A program made the translations under genes and the position numbers. A stretch of 64,000 nucleotides of DNA from Dysidea avara (taxonomy: Eukaryota > Porifera > Demospongiae > Dictyoceratida > Dysideidae). Each line of letters starts with the position of its first letter. Positions within the stretch are counted from its first letter, which is position 1. Below the pieces are notes generated by a model. The model saw only the letters and a list, made by a program, of their open reading frames with translations, ran no database searches and had not been told where the DNA came from. The stretch covers positions 18,605,272 through 18,669,271 of the forward strand of contig NC_089276.1 of NCBI RefSeq assembly GCF_963678975.1, given 5' to 3'. Below are positions 2,394 through 61,890 of the stretch, in pieces.

Positions 2394-2722
2394 AGCTGTT
2401 CAAGAGGACCACTACTGAATCATGTGATCACAACGTCATGTGATTACAACGTCATGTGATCACAACGTCATGTGATCACAACGTCATGTGATTGAGTAGA
2501 CTAGTGTGCATTCTATCTTGTCTAGCGCGTAAAATTTCAAACAATTATTTTTTTCAAGGCGTTAGGTTTATTTTCACACCCTTTATCTGACCATAGATAA
2601 TCTGACTATAGATTATGATCTGACTTCTCTCAACCTTCTCTTCACTTTTCTTCAGTGTTCAGAGGCGGCCGGGGAAGTGATGGATTGATTTCAGTTTTAA
2701 GTAGAATGTTCATTATTGAAGT
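2394..2722. promoter_or_regulatory. Shared head-to-head promoter region of cathepsin Z and EFCAB7
   Basis: The two start codons face away from each other across 329 bp, so one short region must drive both genes. It holds a five-copy tandem E-box array next to the cathepsin side and is otherwise AT-rich with no obvious TATA box. Bidirectional use is inferred from geometry. Confidence 0.6.
2420..2492. repeat. Five-copy 16-bp tandem array of an M-box/CLEAR-like E-box
   Basis: The 9-mer TCATGTGAT occurs at 2420, 2436, 2452, 2468 and 2484, exactly 16 bp apart. Copies 2-5 are preceded by ACG, giving ACGTCATGTGAT, which also contains a CRE-like half site (TGACGT on the other strand). TCATGTGA is the M-box bound by MITF/TFE bHLH-zip factors, which regulate lysosomal genes. 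The array lies 27-100 bp upstream of the cathepsin Z start. Binding is inferred. Confidence 0.75.
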
Positions 2723-10629
<7,907 letters not shown>

Positions 10630-17452: not shown

Positions 17453-27614
<10,162 letters not shown>

Positions 27615-41807: not shown

Positions 41808-44010
41808 AATCAAGACACACGGTAGTGTGTCGTGCGGCCCAAGAAGCCGGCGTGCCACCCATGAGTATATTAACAGGAAGAAAGAAAACGCAATTTTCAC
41901 ACCTATGTAGCTCTGTGATCCCTTATCCGATTGGAACCAAATGTGCTAGAGAGGTGCCGGCCAGCTAGGGGAGTCTACACACCAAATGTGAAGAAAATCG
42001 GTCCAGCCATTTCCGAGATACGAGCGAACAAAATTTCGTTTTAATTTCTTCGTTTTTTTTCTTCTACTTCACTTCGCAGAATCCACCATAAAACACGAAT
42101 GCGTGCTCGGATCGGGCTGAACTTTGGCACACGTAAAGGGCTCATTAAGGCGGATCACCGTACCAACTTTGGTAGGAATCCGATGAACATTCACGGAGTT
42201 ATGACCGATTATTTGCGTAAAATAAGGTCGAAGGTCTGTCACGCCTACAGGGTAAAACCCTTGGAGGAATCAGTTGAAAAGTGATATGTAGATGGAGCAA
42301 CCATCGTAGGAGTGCCTTTTTGTGGCTTGAAAGGAATCGGGATAAAGACCATGGAGATATGACACAAAACCCAACCTGTGTCAAAATTACGCGATCGATT
42401 TTTATGAATAAAAAAACTATTAGTTTTCGTGTCTACCAGGTAAACCGCTTAGACCAACGAGCTGAAAATCAGTATGTAGCTGGAATAATCATCATAGAAA
42501 GTCCTTGCAGTAGTACAGAAGAATCGGATTACAAATCACTGAGTTATGATTCGAAAGGCAACTACGTGCAGCAAATACGAGATCGAGATACTCTAATAGA
42601 ACAGTCACCCTAATAAAGCATTCAGCTGCATTTATAATTTACTCAGTAATCTTACATTGCACGTTATTCTGTAGAAAATTCAGCTACAAACAAGTCACCC
42701 TGTAGTCAGATCGGCTAGAAGAAGGTACCTTATAGAGGGTTCAGCTACAAAGAAGCCATCATGTAGAGAGTTCAGCTCAAATAAATCACCCTGTAGAGAA
42801 TTCAGCTACAAACAAATTACCCTGTAGAGAGATCAGCTAGAAGAAGTTATCTTGTAGAGAGTTCAGCTACAAATAAATCACCCTCTAGAGAGTTCAGCTA
42901 CAAACAAGTCATCCGGTAGAGAGATCAGCTAGAAGGATCACCTTGCAGAGAGGTCAGCTACAAAGAAATCACCATGTAGAGAGAGTTCAGCTGCAAAGAA
43001 ATCACCCTGTAGAAAATTCAGCCACAAACAAATTGCCCTGTAGAAAGATCATTTAGAAGAAGTTACCTTGTAGAGAGTTCAGCTACAAAGAAACCATTCT
43101 GTAAAGAGCTCGGCTGCAAACAAATCACCTGTACAGAATTCAGCTACAAACAAATCACCCTGTAGAGAGATCAGCTATAAGAAGTTACCTTGTAGATCGT
43201 TCAGCTACAAACAAATCACCCTGTAGAGAGATCAGCTAGAAGAAGTCACCTTGTAGAGAGTTCAGCTACAAAGAAACCACCATGTATAGAGTTCAGCTAC
43301 AAAGAAACCATTCTGTAAAGAGCCGGCTCAGCTGCAAACAAATCACCTGTACAGAATTCAGCTACAAACAAATCACCCTGTAGAGAGATCAGCTACAAGA
43401 AGTTACCTTGTAGATTGTTCAGCTACAAACAATTCACCCTATAGAGAGAGCATCTAGAAGAAGTCACCTTGTAGAGTGTTCAGTTACAAAGAAACCACCA
43501 TGGAGATTTCTGTAATCAATATATGTATTATATATATAATTTGTACATTTACTGATAAAATATTTAAAGTACATCTTCTTCATCTTTTCTTCTTCCTGTG
43601 ATAAAGAAAAAGAAGATAGGTTATAAAGTCTCAAAGCCGGCCATAGTTGGGGTATACAAATACAAAAAGAAATGAAATCTATTCCAAAACAGACAAGCTG
43701 TAAAAAAAAGTGTGCGGCCCTTAAAAAGGCTAAGGTGAAAAAAGATGTGAAATCCAAGGTGGCGGCCAAGAAATGGCTGTGATGGTAGGTTAATGGTAAA
43801 AATTTTAATAACGCAATTCAGGTGAATTTTGTGCCAAGACAAAGCGGCACCAAATTCACCTGAATTTTCGTTATTAAAATTTTTACCATTAACCTACCAT
43901 CACAGCCATTTCTTGGCCGCCACCTTGGATTTCACATCTTTTTTCACATTAGCCTTTTTAAGGGCCGCACACTTTTTTTACAGCTTGTCTGATTTGGATT
44001 AGATAATATT
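41808..44010 (-). mobile_element. Foldback-plus-minisatellite element, copy B (opposite to copy A)
   Basis: Same parts as copy A in reverse order: terminal stem-loop GACACACGGTAGTGTGTC near 41815-41832, a region of about 800 bp with an internal repeating design, a minisatellite of about 29 units (TTCAGCTACAAACAAATCAC type, 42650-43500), the spacer, then the foldback arms (43683-43998). The array is nearly twice as long as in copy A. Shared words include GTGCGGCCCT, AAATCCAAGGTGGCGGCCAA and TGGTAGGTTAATGGTAAAA. Its open frames are not kept between copies. Confidence 0.78.
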
Positions 44011-44189
44011 TATCCACCACGAAAACAGCCAATTCATTGAAAAACTATATTATTGGGGCGAGCCCCACACTAGGGAGTCAGCGGTGTAATGGACACGTTT
44101 ACTATAAATTACGATATAAAGCGGATACCTTACCCGTGCTTCCAGACCATTCTCCTTATACGGTGTGCGTAGTCCATACAAGTGCGTGT

Positions 44190-53091: not shown

Positions 53092-54659
53092 CTTTACTTC
53101 CCTCCCCTCACTCCTCAAAAACCATACACAATACTTTTGTGAATAATATAAATGAATTCTTGGTTAATGATCTGACAATTATGGGGGAGAGTAATTTATC
53201 GGACAGTTAATTTGTTCATGAGCTAATTTTCCGGGTAAACTGTGACACATTCTCCTCTGCTGATAGGTTCAATAAGGTAACAAGCACGTCAACTCATAAA
53301 TTAATGATTATAATTTTTAAAAACAACATTTCTATATAGTAGAGTGGCTAAGTGAAAAAATCATTCGCTTTTTGATAAAAGCACCAAACTTGGTACAACT
53401 TCATATTATTTCATATTAGATATGGTGCCATTAAAATTACCAATCATATTATGCTCAAAGTACCTGACAAGTAAAATAAAAGATGTGTGTATTGTGGAAG
53501 CCATAAAAGTATCATATAGGAAATATACTGAAACACTATGCATCTGCATAGACGAGCAAGGGATGGTTATATCCAAAAGCTGATGAAGGGAGGTGTCCAT
53601 CCAGGTAATTAGCTTGCCATGTTAAAAAGCATGGAGGGTCATGGTATATGAAGCCATAGATGTGCAATGTATTATTTCTGTGCCCGTACTTTTGTTACTA
53701 AAATATAGGTTCCATTAGAAATGTTCAAAAAGCTGCTGCATTTTAAAGATTTTTTGATTGCATCTGTAAATTTGAAATACTTCCATGTGATTTAAGCAAA
53801 AATGAAGATTCTGAATGCACTTGTATGGTTTCCTGGCCAGCTAGAAATAAGCTTATAACTCGGCGTTAAAGTTACAAAACATGCCCTAAGACAATGAGTT
53901 TGATGTGGCACCGTATCTCAAATGATTTAGTATACCTTACTCAGCTTCCACAGAAAATTTGGTGCTTTTAATTATCACAAAGTGAACGATTTCATCAAAA
54001 TTTGTTGCTTAGCCGCTCTACTAATACCTATGGACTCTGCATGCTGTTCATTTATATAACACTTTAGCATGGGCATTCAAAGGTGCCGCTTGGACTTTAT
54101 TTTGCATATTGAATATCATGAGAACGCGGTTTGCTCGTAGCTTTGATGCCCAACCAGTTCAAAGATATGATATGTTTTGACTCGTTACACACAGAATTGA
54201 TTCAGTATTAGTTTCTTAGCTTTTGCTGTGCATGTGTTAATAAATTTTAATATACTATTACAAGCAAACAAACTATAAATGTCCAAACTAAGGATGGAGA
54301 TACTCCTCATGCATAGTCAGGCCAATCATCAAGGGATCAGGCAGGTGTCCAGGGGAGGAGCGGCAACCAAGCAAATACAAGCGTATTAAGGAAAGTCCTA
54401 TATGGCATCAAAGCCAGTAAAGCTGTGACTAGGTTTCTGAGTGTACAGTCGCAAAATTACGTCAAGATGAATGTTAACAAACTATTTTCTATGATGAAGG
54501 ATCACTAAACGATCAATTGGGCAATGCAAGAATACATACTTATATGCATCACGTATTAGCCATAGAGTAGACCATGGAGCAAGATACTATATTGAAAATA
54601 TAGGTCAGTAACTTATGGTCCTAAACACCTTACTTAATATATGTGCATTTCATTGCTAA

Positions 54660-55312: not shown

Positions 55313-55573
55313 TATTCACTATTATATTACTGTCCCAATAACAAAGTTAGTAGCCTTAATGTTGTGTAAAAGAGTAGAAATAAAACTCACACCCACAATG
55401 ATAACTTGTAATGAAGCATAATGATGCATGGATAACATTCTTAAGAGTAGTAGCCCATGCTTTTACAACCACAATCAATCATCAGATACCGGTGTATAAA
55501 ACAAACAGGGTGAGTGCTCTATAGTTCTTTCACCTATTAGGTGAGTACATGATATATATATATATATGTGTAC

Positions 55574-55745
55574 CACTTTCACACCTCAGATCAAAGGAAA
55601 GCCAGTGCATATATATCACATATTGCACTGACTCAAAATGTTAACGAGATATACGCACTGCGTATATCTCGTTAAGACAGTGGGTATATCTCGTTACACA
55701 CTGCCTTAACGAGATATACGCACTGCGTATATCTCGTTAACTTGA
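55574..55745. repeat. Conserved 25-nt head plus twin 35-bp palindromes (H7)
   Basis: CACTTTCACACCTCAGATCA, five more bases, is identical at 57242-57266. It is followed by CAGTGCA...TGCACTG and two identical palindromes with 17-bp stems (TTAACGAGATATACGCA) at 55641-55675 and 55706-55740. A degenerate half copy lies between them. Confidence 0.88.
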
Positions 55746-55855
55746 GACATTGCATACCTAATAGCTATAGGTGTGCACACTATATCCAGAAATCATCAGA
55801 TTTCTTTAATGTTTTACTGTTATCCTCTTCTCTTATATAGGGAATCAAGCAAGCT

Positions 55856-55943
55856 GCACTCGTGCTTTGCCTGTATATACGCACTCGCCCTCGGGCCTGC
55901 AGCCCTCGGGCTTGTGCGTATATATCAGGCAAAGCACTCTTGC
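55856..55943. repeat. Long hairpin H2 of the variable-palindrome family
   Basis: Left arm GCACTCGTGCTTTGCCTG then TATATACGCAC; right arm GTGCGTATATA then CAGGCAAAGCACTCTTGC. Compared with H1, CTCTGCC/GGCAGAG has become CTTTGCC/GGCAAAG and AAAC/GTTT has become ATAC/GTAT: paired changes. Confidence 0.88.
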
Positions 55944-55991
55944 CCATGGTATAACTATTACATATATATATATAGATATATATAATATCAC

Positions 55992-56103
55992 TTATACCAC
56001 AGCTCCTTGGGATTTGCTGATATATACACTTAAAGTCAGAGTGCCATAGGCCCAAGGGCGTTGGGTGTATCTATCTGCAAAATCCTTCGCAGCCGTGGTA
56101 TAA
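55992..56103. repeat. Long hairpin H4 of the variable-palindrome family
   Basis: TTATACCACAGCTCC at the left pairs with GCAGCCGTGGTATAA at the right; inner GGATTTGCTGATATATACAC faces GTGTATCTATCTGCAAAATC. Followed by CTATTGCA, like the CTATTACA tails of H2 and H3. Confidence 0.82.
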
Positions 56104-57241
56104 CTATTGCATGGACATTGTTATAGATCATAAACACACTGATACTAGAGCTTTCTCAAATTCAAATAATTATTAGAGCTAATAAAACTTGTGATCATCA
56201 TCAAGACTTACCGAATTTAAGGATAAACAAAATAGTACATAGCTACCCACCATGTGGGAGGTAGTATTAGTATGTGGGTGAAATGACAGTGATAATATGG
56301 ATCATTAACAAGTAGAAAACTACCAAGGTCTACTAAAATGTATTTTATTAACTTGCTGGCATCACCGTAAACTGTAATTATAGTCACCCAAAAGAACACT
56401 AACATAGCTCTGTGAGGAGTGAGTATTACTTAAAATACATGGATTTAAACTTAATTAATGATAGCTTTTAGGAAGTGGGTAATGTTTACAACATAATTAG
56501 GAATGTGCTGGCTGGTTGCTAAATCTTCCTACAATAAACCAAGCTTTTCCCTATCATTCCAGCCATTTGCACGCGTACAGTCACTGTCTGCCAGATTCTG
56601 GTCGTACATACTTCCAACTCTTCTGGAAGAGATTCTCCTATCAGATATCTTTAAAATGCAAGCAACCATAAGATCAGAGAGAAATATACAATCTAGAGTA
56701 AATACCTTGGATCTGCTTTAGATGTGGAAAAGCATGCAAAAGATCCAAAACAGTGGCAACTCAATCTTTTAGCAGCATACTATCTAACGGGTGTACTGTG
56801 TCAACAAAGAAACACATTATGAAATTCAAATTTAACCTTAGCAACATCAATTGTTGACATCATAATAGTGTACAGTGCTAGGTGGGAAGACTTGAGTTTT
56901 AACTACTTTCATAACAAATAACATAACATGGGATCAGTCGATCACTCATGCACAATGCGCTGTTACAATATCATACCACTGATAATGGTGCATTAAATAA
57001 CTGTACATGTACATTCCTGAGCAACCATGCATGCACGTATACAATCCTGATATATATGTATATATGCTAATATATATGTGCTTGACAGTTATAGTATGTG
57101 TACCCAGGCAAGAGTATTATACGTAGTTCTTTTTGTTATACCTCTTGATCCAAGAGGTCAGATACTCATGGCTGCTGCTCAGTATTTATACCACTCAATG
57201 CATCTCTTACCAATTGCTATAAAATATATAATTATATGTAA

Positions 57242-57330
57242 CACTTTCACACCTCAGATCAAAGGAGCCGCCCAGGCTACATTTCATATGTTTCCCAGCT
57301 AGCCAGGCTACATATGAAATGTAGCTGGGC
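57242..57330. repeat. Conserved head plus hairpin H6
   Basis: The 25-nt head shared with 55574 is followed here by an unrelated stem: GCCCAGGCTACATTTCATAT pairs with CATATGAAATGTAGCTGGGC. Same scaffold, different palindrome. Confidence 0.85.
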
Positions 57331-57590
57331 TACAACTGGGCAGTGATTATATAGACTTTGAAGCCAAAATCGATTGTGGGGATTGATTATACTCTCATGT
57401 TTAGGATGCACAACTTGGATTTCGCCATGAAAACCACTCAGACAGAGAGCATTTTGTTATCCTCGCCATCCTATGAGTTGAAAAACGTTGGGCTAAGGTG
57501 AGAAGTAGTGCTATAACTTATTCACCGATTGTTTCCACACATTTTCGAATACAGACACGTCCCACAGGCTATCAGCCTGATAAGTGTTAC

Positions 57591-57847
57591 ATATGTGACC
57601 GAATTTTGGAAAATCACCCATATGGGCGCATTTGACACCTAAAATATTTAATGATCAAATCTAAACTTTATAGTGCAAATCTACTTGTTGGTGGTTTTAA
57701 GCCATTTTCAATGCCTTAAATTACAAGAAAATTCTTGAAATATTTTCAAAACTGTACCCTGCTCTTATTAGCAATCCACTAAACATGAAAATTCTAATTA
57801 TTTCACCCATGCCCATATGGGTGATTTTCCAAGATTCAGTCACATAT
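57591..57847. mobile_element. TIR MITE, ATATGTGACC family, copy 2
   Basis: Ends ATATGTGACCGAATTTTGG and CCAAGATTCAGTCACATAT. Inner AAAATCACCCATATGGGC pairs with GCCCATATGGGTGATTTT. It abuts hairpin H3, so it probably inserted into that element. Confidence 0.82.
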
Positions 57848-57849
57848 TA

Positions 57850-57947
57850 GCTGTAACATGGGGCATTCAGGCTTTGCCTTATATGTATGCCCTCTGCCCT
57901 CTGCCATACATATCAGGCAAAGCCCTCATGCCCGTATGTGTTACAGC
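57850..57947. repeat. Long hairpin H3 of the variable-palindrome family
   Basis: Outer GCTGTAAC pairs with GTTACAGC; inner GGCTTTGCCTTATATGTATG pairs with CATACATATCAGGCAAAGCC. Followed by TATTACATATATA, the tail seen after H2. Confidence 0.85.
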
Positions 57948-58947
57948 TATTACATATATATACATACACCTGCATGGGGGAGGGAAGAAGGAGAAAACTG
58001 ACAGTACTAGTATCTCAAAATAAAAGTATTTAAGAAAAGTATTTAAGGGGGTGAAAGAAGTACATAGAGAGTTTGCAAGGTGAAGACATCATGAATAATA
58101 ACCAATATAGGATTAGTAGTACGTGTTAGAGGAATGAGCTTTGAAAAGTGAGTGTTCAATATTAGAATGCTTATATAACCTATATATAGCTATATGTACA
58201 CTTATATGGATAAACAGATTAACGGAAATCTGTTGTTGATGTATAACGAAAGATAAAATGGAATGTATGTGTATGCTTGTGAATTGTGTAGTGTGTGTGT
58301 GTGTGTGTTTGTGGCATACTTGTAATATAGTAGGCTGCAATTGAGTGTTTGTAAAGTGCATGGATAAAGTGTAATGGGAAAAGTGTGTTATTGAAAAATG
58401 CAAGCATTGTAACACATTTCATAGAACTTTATCAATGACTACAATTCTGTATAACCCAAAAGCAATTGCTACTAAGAATTAATTAATGATGCATGAGGTT
58501 TGCCCCCTAATGGGATTTCAAAGAATATGCATATGTTTATAATTTAGACTATTCACACCCTATACACAACAATTATGTTGTCAAAATAATGGTGTGAAGT
58601 AAACATTATACTTATCACGTTAGCACCTCATTATTATGATTAATTGAGTTATGATAATGCACATTTTAGTGCAAATCGAACATCTGGTTTTGTACTAAGA
58701 GAGGATTGTACAAAGTTTTATGCAAGGCAACTGAGTCATCTGTTCAATGATATGAAATGGATGTATTATGCTTCACTATAATTATGAGCATGCATGTATA
58801 CAGTGATGTGGCAATATAATAATTTATGTACTGTGTTATGAGACAAGACAAAAAAGTTTCTAGCAAAGAATGGCAGGGGCAAATTTGCTATACTTGTACT
58901 GTCACAGTACTCCAAGTTAGATCGTACATAGACAAGCATATTGATAG

Positions 58948-61194: not shown

Positions 61195-61890
61195 CAAGCA
61201 TGCAAAGGCACCACTTGGAGTTTAACTCACATATATCATGGAAACACAGTTTGCACATGGCTTTGAGTTCACAGATATGATACGCTTTGAATTGTTATAT
61301 TGAGTGACATGGAGTGTTAAATTGTGGGTTTGGGTTTACAGGTTACTAGCTAAGTTTTGATTAGTTGACAGTTACTAAATGAGGTAATTGTTTGGGCAAT
61401 GCGTGCATGCGTATTTCTACCTAACACATGTCAGCCATTGAGCAGAACACGGAACAACACAAAGAGCACAGCTACGTCAGTAACTTATAGTCCTAACTAC
61501 TTAACTTAATAGATTACCTTACTTACTGTCCCAATAGCAAAGTCAGTAGGCATAATGTAATACAAAATGCTAATGCTAAAAAACTGAATCCCACAATCGT
61601 ATTTTTCTGGTGCTGTATGTAAAGCATAGTGACGTATGAATAATGTTCTAATGGTTATTAGCCCACATTATTAATCAATCACCAGATACTAATGTATAAA
61701 AGGAACAGGGTAAAGGTTCTGTAGTTCTTTCACCTATCAAGTGAGTGTGCCTATAGAGTGATATATTATCACGTATACTACACCTGGCTGCATCTGGTTT
61801 TTCTGATATATACACTTCGAGCCTGTGGCCCTTGTGTTTCAGGTGTATATATCAGCAAAATCCCTCGCAACTATTAAATATATAATACAT
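61195..61890 (+). mobile_element. Variable-palindrome dispersed element, copy 2, with hairpin H5
   Basis: Uninterrupted counterpart of 54060-56110, ending in hairpin H5 (61785-61870): GGTTTTTCTGATATATACAC faces GGTGTATATATCAGCAAAAT. CACCTATCAAGTGAG replaces the CACCTATTAGGTGAG palindrome. Tail CTATTAAATATATA. Confidence 0.7.

Follow-up and report, generated by a model that had tools for sequence, protein, structure and literature searches.

Introduction

That the 3′ stem of DINE-1 elements is maintained by compensatory mutations was proposed in 2008, in the part of the report available to us (PMC2374699), and insertion in TT together with a lineage-specific 3′ stem are the marks given for DINE-1/HINE elements in the accessible portions of PMC4067079 and PMC2374699. 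FoHeli1 and FoHeli2 insert between TNAT and T, according to the excerpt of PMC5148889. For Helraiser, the available text of PMC4778049 reports that about 90% of activity was kept when the stem sequence was exchanged, and that activity was not kept after deletion of the hairpin or a change in the loop; tolerance of stem exchange is what a drifting yet paired stem would need. In maize and rice, as far as the accessible section of one study goes, there was little to show that the 3′ palindromes of Helitrons are important (PMC2575219), which counts against reading the hairpin as an end signal. Template switching, in which one arm is rewritten from the other, has been described for RNA genes, where it both creates and repairs stems (PMC8794818, available in part). 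A literature search with subscription journals mostly outside its range found no papers combining Helitron, hairpin and covariation.

Here we analyse a 64,000-nucleotide stretch of the Dysidea avara genome, referred to as the window, whose positions are used throughout. An original prediction had proposed that six long hairpins in it (H1 to H6) are dispersed copies of one kind of element, with a fixed scaffold and stems that stay paired while their sequence drifts or is replaced. We find several related families of short non-coding (non-autonomous) transposable elements, which are probably rolling-circle elements of the Helitron2/Helentron type.

Results

The hairpins belong to separate families

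All six hairpins are present in the window. H1, H3 and H6 are among the 25 longest of its 36 inverted repeats; H2, H4 and H5 are not in those 25 and fold as long bulged hairpins. Under a stricter definition the window holds 9 long hairpins, compared with 0 in each of 20 dinucleotide shuffles, and H1 is the only one of the six that qualifies, the others having bulges or longer loops. Contrary to the proposal, the six are not one kind of element. The family A element starting at 55569 has H2 at its 3′ end, and the family B element starting at 57237 has H6 as its 5′ palindrome and H3 at its 3′ end. H4 and H5 terminate copies of family C on the 3′ side, as H1 does for a further family. A single family with reshuffled palindromes was rejected; A, B, C and H1 represent separate families.

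The 25-nt head occurs in the window at 55574 and 57242. Allowing up to 3 mismatches, it matches the 550.8-Mb genome 1,461 times in forward and 1,479 times in reverse orientation (2,940 in all), compared with 0 for the reversed 25-nt head used as control, and an A-specific 35-nt start has 262 and 288 matches. We retrieved 20 loci with exact head matches (cited below, like other loci of this genome, by L numbers) and compared them together with the 2 window copies. The 22 heads sort into family A (n = 6) and family B (n = 16), and 15 elements were read from head through tail. The head is indeed identical, as had been noted, but the apparently unrelated palindromes that follow it are those of two families with a common 5′ end. 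Copies of both families end in the long hairpin followed by CTATTAC(A/T).

Diverged heads are found at 7991 (TGTACCACTCTGCGTGGGCAGTTCAAAGG, followed by palindromic-looking sequence) and at 54055 (TATAACACTTTAGCATGGGCATTCAAAGG), so the head is a scaffold wider than families A and B. The first of these lies in the following feature:

7991–8300, no strand assigned: diverged head with palindromes (7991–8019, plus strand), apparently joined to a minus-strand scaffold of small hairpin and TATA-like box (8229–8300).

Another long foldback repeat has two copies in the window, at 19240–19564 and 43670–44011, with arms of more than 110 nt that are 96–98% complementary. A Pfam search of ten window reading frames gave no domain above cut-off; NIDO and hormone-receptor (HRM) domains were seen in neighbouring loci.

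Family A starts with TGTAC, the head and AAGCCAGTGC (6 copies), and is represented in the window by the following features:

55569–55962, plus strand: family A element, 394 bp, internally deleted, with TGTACCAC, head and 5′ palindrome at one end and H2 and CTATTACA at the other (aligned with L003, L011, L014 and L019; ends checked).
55640–55741, plus strand: inverted units of the A 5′ palindrome, their number differing among copies (inverted-repeat list and alignment).
55846–55963, plus strand: H2, the A 3′ hairpin, with the base of its left arm deleted.

Most of the body of this copy and the base of the left arm were lost by internal deletion, so the H2 stem, unlike in the proposal of stems that stay paired, is not intact. 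In L014 (2601–2650) the A tail is followed 11 nt on by another, diverged head that points the same way, an arrangement that fits the expected appearance of tandem rolling-circle products. In L019 (2130–2160) the tail of the A copy stops 16 nt short of what seems to be a host exon of a receptor-like gene (HRM domain, E 2e-9). L006 carries a tyrosine-recombinase-like fragment (2676–3011; Phage_integrase, E 0.006, below the family cut-off) near its A head and outside the A element.

Family B starts with TGTAA and the head, followed in nearly all of its 16 copies by a CC.GGGCTAC-like palindrome; beyond the palindrome, some B-headed copies (e.g. L002, L005, L017) have a different sequence. The B features in the window are:

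57237–57954, plus strand: family B element, with TGTAACAC, head and 5′ palindrome (H6) at one end and small hairpin, H3 and CTATTACA at the other (aligned with L001, L004, L007–L010, L015, L016, L018 and L020; ends checked).
57266–57340, plus strand: H6, the B 5′ palindrome (inverted-repeat list).
57565–57579, plus strand: B small hairpin, CAGGC-TATCA-GCCTG.
57595–57843, plus strand: MITE-like insertion of 249 bp inside the B copy, with ATAT on both flanks and an inverted repeat beginning GTGACCGAATTTTGG (inverted-repeat list).
57847–57955, plus strand: H3, the B 3′ hairpin, with tail.

The MITE-like insertion is missing, and its site uninterrupted, in 10/10 other B copies checked. Family C and the family of H1 are represented by:

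55473–56111, plus strand, 5′ limit not set: family C element interrupted by A, with small hairpin (55531–55545), H4 and tail CTATTGCA (56104–56111); a dispersed repeat in the window.
61673–61877, plus strand, 5′ limit not set: family C element without A, with small hairpin (61731–61745) and H5.
8916–9055, plus strand, 5′ limit not set: 3′ part of a further family, with small hairpin CACCTATTAGGTGAG and H1.

The A element is nested in C: its flanks match 61622–61746 (73% identity) and 61752–61869 (68%), which are adjacent regions of the second C copy; L034 holds a third. This arrangement gives an approximate empty site, since AT repeats mask the exact bases of the joint; none exact to the base was found. 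The words said to be shared among hairpins do recur, CACCTATTAGGTGAG at 8916, 55531 and, on the minus strand, 8229, and CTATTACATATATA at 55955 and 57947, but the CACC word at 55531 goes with H4 of family C rather than with H2. CACCTATTAGGTGAG is part of C, of the H1 family and of others, and is absent from A and B.

Element ends and flanks point to probable rolling-circle movement

The base before the TGTA of the head is A in 20/22 cases and G in 2/22, and the 3′ flank begins with T in 15/15 elements (in L010 after a one-base index correction). Targets are AT-rich, the same dinucleotide (TA) stands on both sides of 6/15 elements, and inspection by eye showed no 4–6 bp target duplication in the 15. 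Depending on where the first base is placed, the flanks fit insertion at T/T or A/T, a reading for which the empty site is approximate only. L016, which is near-identical to L015, was left out of this flank survey as well as of the B stem counts and hairpin alignments described below. Between the 5′ octamer and the base of the 3′ hairpin, 6–8 of 8 positions are complementary in 13 of 15 rows; the remaining rows score 2 (L010, indexed one base off) and 4 (L019, with a truncated hairpin). Complementarity of the two ends is slightly better within than across families (means of 6.6 and 5.8 compared with 5.6 and 5.2). Helitron2/Helentron features found here are thus asymmetric terminal inverted repeats, of which the 3′ one is subterminal, and a 3′ hairpin with a 5′ palindrome. 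Three points speak against this class: no partner element was found, no exact empty site was found, and the dimensions are unusual.

We weighed these ends against two other kinds of mobile element. Cut-and-paste DNA transposons (MITEs), with TGTAAC/GTTACA as terminal inverted repeats and subterminal palindromes, would account for the inverted ends (TGTAA...TTACA) of short, non-coding elements in AT-rich targets; nonetheless, the 5′ end finds its better inverted-repeat match at a subterminal position, and with TA matching in so few elements and no longer duplication seen, this origin seems quite unlikely. A MITE of the Tc1/mariner type was rejected, since the TA duplication it would leave on both sides is seen in 6/15 elements only. 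Solo LTRs of a retroelement would likewise have TG...CA ends, as seen here, and could explain a TATA-like box 43–48 nt ahead of a splice-donor-like step near the 3′ end. Their 4–6 bp duplication was not seen by eye in any of the 15 elements, and when 18 of 100 listed A places were checked, the sole same-strand pair within 15 kb was 104 bp apart, which is not a retroelement length. Solo LTRs are therefore extremely improbable and were rejected for want of a fitting target duplication. Rolling-circle replication of the Helitron2/Helentron type agrees best with the asymmetric ends, and we infer that the elements moved in this way.

The genome has at least 150 Rep matches. Thirty Rep loci were read, covering 26 distinct places of the 150 scored; the head (up to 5 mismatches) was found in 0/30, and no autonomous element with these ends was recognised among them. 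The four long proteins scanned all have Rep and PIF1, and two also have OTU. Long reading frames from 20 ten-kb Rep loci were also compared with the window and the 20 head loci. Three queries gave weak alignments, five pieces in all: one in L002, about 650 nt downstream of the head (L002 has no recognised tail), and four in the window from 23968 to 25784, far from the elements under study.

Two Rep-PIF1-OTU elements, L045 and L050, are near-identical (98%) and carry GTACCACGGTAGTGGTAC at the 5′ end, with the same opening bases as family A. Compared at the 5′ end only, they start with ATCATGTACCAC, which resembles the TGTACCAC of A.

Several Rep loci are canonical TC...CTAG elements. L031–L039 are canonical Helitrons of this kind, with open reading frames of up to 1,613 aa and copies 95–98% alike, indicating that rolling-circle elements were recently active in this genome. 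Descent of the present families from the canonical Helitrons (Helitron1) retrieved was rejected, their ends being TGTA(A/C)...TTAC(A/T) rather than 5′ TC and 3′ CTRR.

Stems covary between families and decay within one

The complementary changes first noticed between stems are correct: CTCTGCC/GGCAGAG in H1 corresponds to CTTTGCC/GGCAAAG in H2 and H3, and AAAC/GTTT to ATAC/GTAT. Using consensus arms made from copies and aligned by hand, we counted 7 paired doubles and 1 single-sided change in 38 pairs between A and B (1.5 doubles expected, P 6e-7), 4 and 4 in 41 pairs between A and H1 (0.85 expected, P 0.0016), and 9 and 5 in 38 pairs between B and H1 (3.4 expected, P 4e-5). When 15 hairpins (10 B, 4 A and H1; L019, with its truncated hairpin, was left out) were aligned with MAFFT, both sides are changed in 12/39 pairs, and the covariation score is 0.164 compared with 0.092 for shuffles, 0/500 of which were as high; slid versions scored at most 0.059. 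The window A copy, with part of its left arm lost, contributes unpaired cells to this test. Further pair types were not in excess of shuffles in the 15 hairpins (22 compared with 23.6). Most covarying cells split A and H1 from B, so that they represent a few events on a tree and not fifteen independent observations.

Within-family counts come from B, family A being too small for such a test. Among the ten B copies alone, 1 pair is changed on both sides and the covariation score is 0.036 compared with 0.041 for shuffles, of which 451/500 were at least as high. Over the 38 Watson-Crick pairs of the B 3′ hairpin, 314 cells are unchanged, 36 have single-sided changes, 1 is a paired double, 1 is an unpaired double and 28 are gapped, with 1.1 doubles expected; L015 and L018 are related, and changes common to both are counted twice. 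Stem substitutions that are mostly unpaired, as these are, had been named in the original prediction as the outcome that would speak against it. Its picture of complementary changes on a fixed scaffold therefore holds between families and fails among copies of one family. Stem changes in B copies are ordinary decay, and paired changes separate source lineages. Covariation between families with none within B indicates that hairpins are kept in multiplying lineages while inserted copies decay.

The B 5′ palindrome was counted in 11/16 copies (excluding L007, L008, L013, L016 and L017) and has 20 single-sided changes, 4 paired doubles and 1 unpaired double, with 0.95 doubles expected. A single CpG change accounts for three of the four paired doubles: in L004, L005 and the window copy, both sides go from GC to AT. 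This change may reflect shared descent or deamination of both arms and was thus not counted as selection.

In copies of both A and B the stem usually holds a 2×2 TC/TC loop. In L001 the right arm has GA at the loop site and pairs with the left arm; in the related loci L015, L016 and L018, the left arm has GA and pairs with the right. Such adjacent double changes, opposite in direction and each restoring pairing, would be hard to obtain by point mutation and fit template switching. The original prediction had raised a self-templating process, and since arm copying is visible in two B lineages, the idea is partly real, although it covers a small part of the pattern.

Could copying between arms, by template switching, snap-back copying or gene conversion, be the main means by which complementarity is maintained, with no need for selection? 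Erasure of the TC/TC loop in both directions argues for it, as do the excess of paired doubles in the 5′ palindrome and the making and mending of stems by template switching documented in the available part of PMC8794818. Yet the single-sided changes in the B 3′ hairpin were left uncorrected, B copies show no excess of covariation, and three-quarters of the 5′ doubles may be inherited as one change; as the main explanation, arm-to-arm copying is unlikely. Retention of the hairpins for the sake of a pre-miRNA-like or otherwise structured RNA would suit the long, stable stems and the TATA-like box upstream of hairpins in several families. Loops and inner stems differ, however, in length and content, and at the gathering threshold the window has 0 Rfam matches, by which a known RNA family was rejected. 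Selection on RNA structure, also part of the original prediction, is very improbable, and on balance nothing found favours an RNA product. A DNA hairpin retained as a rolling-circle 3′ end signal explains most of the pattern.

A promoter-like scaffold recurs ahead of the small hairpin

A TATA-like box lies 43–48 nt ahead of the AG of the small hairpin in the eight instances measured, from at least four families. The scaffold consists of this box followed by the small hairpin, which also reads as a splice donor (AG/GTGAGT), and is found at:

8229–8300, minus strand: scaffold joined to the diverged head.
8850–8930: scaffold.
55495–55545: scaffold.
61713–61745: scaffold.
L009, 1418–1470: scaffold; further instances in L003, L011 and L019.

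A regular expression for the scaffold gave 4 matches in 360 kb, compared with 4 in total over 20 Markov resamplings. The instances are related by descent, so that they establish a common scaffold and not a function. Judging from sequence resemblance, the 3′ scaffold might be a mobile start cassette, with CCCACAATCGA, the TATA-like box and the donor-like AG/GTGAGT 43–48 nt on pointing out through the 3′ end, and with the head as an acceptor-like counterpart (TTTCACACCTCAG/A). We regard this as rather doubtful; the GT of the donor-like step is lacking in family B, and a minority of C1-type copies was sampled. The final AGATCAAAGG of the head is presumably a TCF/LEF site. If the cassette were real, thousands of copies would spread promoters, splice sites and enhancers, or would put them to use where the ends join in a circular intermediate.

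Discussion

In these elements the 5′ end is formed by head and palindrome and the 3′ end by small hairpin, long hairpin and CTATTACA. The first eight bases and the base of the long hairpin complement each other as asymmetric inverted repeats. The long hairpin probably signals the 3′ end to what would be a replication-helicase enzyme. Multiplying lineages would hence keep the stem while its letters drift, inserted copies would lose pairing one side at a time, and an occasional template switch may rewrite one arm from the other. Paired changes between families, where structure is kept, can in this way be told from the one-sided decay of inserted copies, although the two look alike in raw sequence. 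Long, simple hairpins present by the thousand in a single genome could also allow template-switch rewriting to be gauged against mutational breakage of stems.

Recopying of one arm from the other is likewise described for template-switch mutations at stems in the accessible part of PMC8794818; here it is a minor process, acting in copies of mobile elements. The bat element HelibatN3 is a non-autonomous Helitron with promoter and splice donor, which the TATA-like and donor-like scaffold described here resembles, but in the excerpt available these came by capture from an identified host gene and are documented in transcripts (PMC4778049), whereas in the sponge there is sequence resemblance only. 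Canonical Helitrons of the same genome (L031–L039) have TC...CTAG and a short hairpin, compared with TGTA(A/C)...TTAC(A/T) and a long hairpin in the present families. Helitron2 elements, including FoHeli of Fusarium, share asymmetric terminal inverted repeats, hairpins at both ends and a 3′ repeat within the hairpin, as given in the available part of PMC5148889; they differ in having other terminal sequences, and no coding copy is known here.

A close likeness is also seen to DINE-1/HINE, the non-autonomous Helentrons. According to the accessible portions of PMC2374699 and PMC4067079, these too are non-coding and present in very many copies, insert beside T without clear duplication, and have inverted repeats, the 3′ one subterminal, with a 3′ hairpin whose stem changes in a lineage-specific, compensatory manner. 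Dimensions differ: in the same excerpts 3′ stems are 7–11 nt in DINE-1 and 5–10 bp in HINE, compared with about 40 bp here, and the distance from 3′ repeat to end is about 38–60 bp in HINE, compared with about 9 nt here. Compensatory stem change between families is thus a pattern already known for such elements, and the sponge families are a variant of known rolling-circle elements that involves no new principle.
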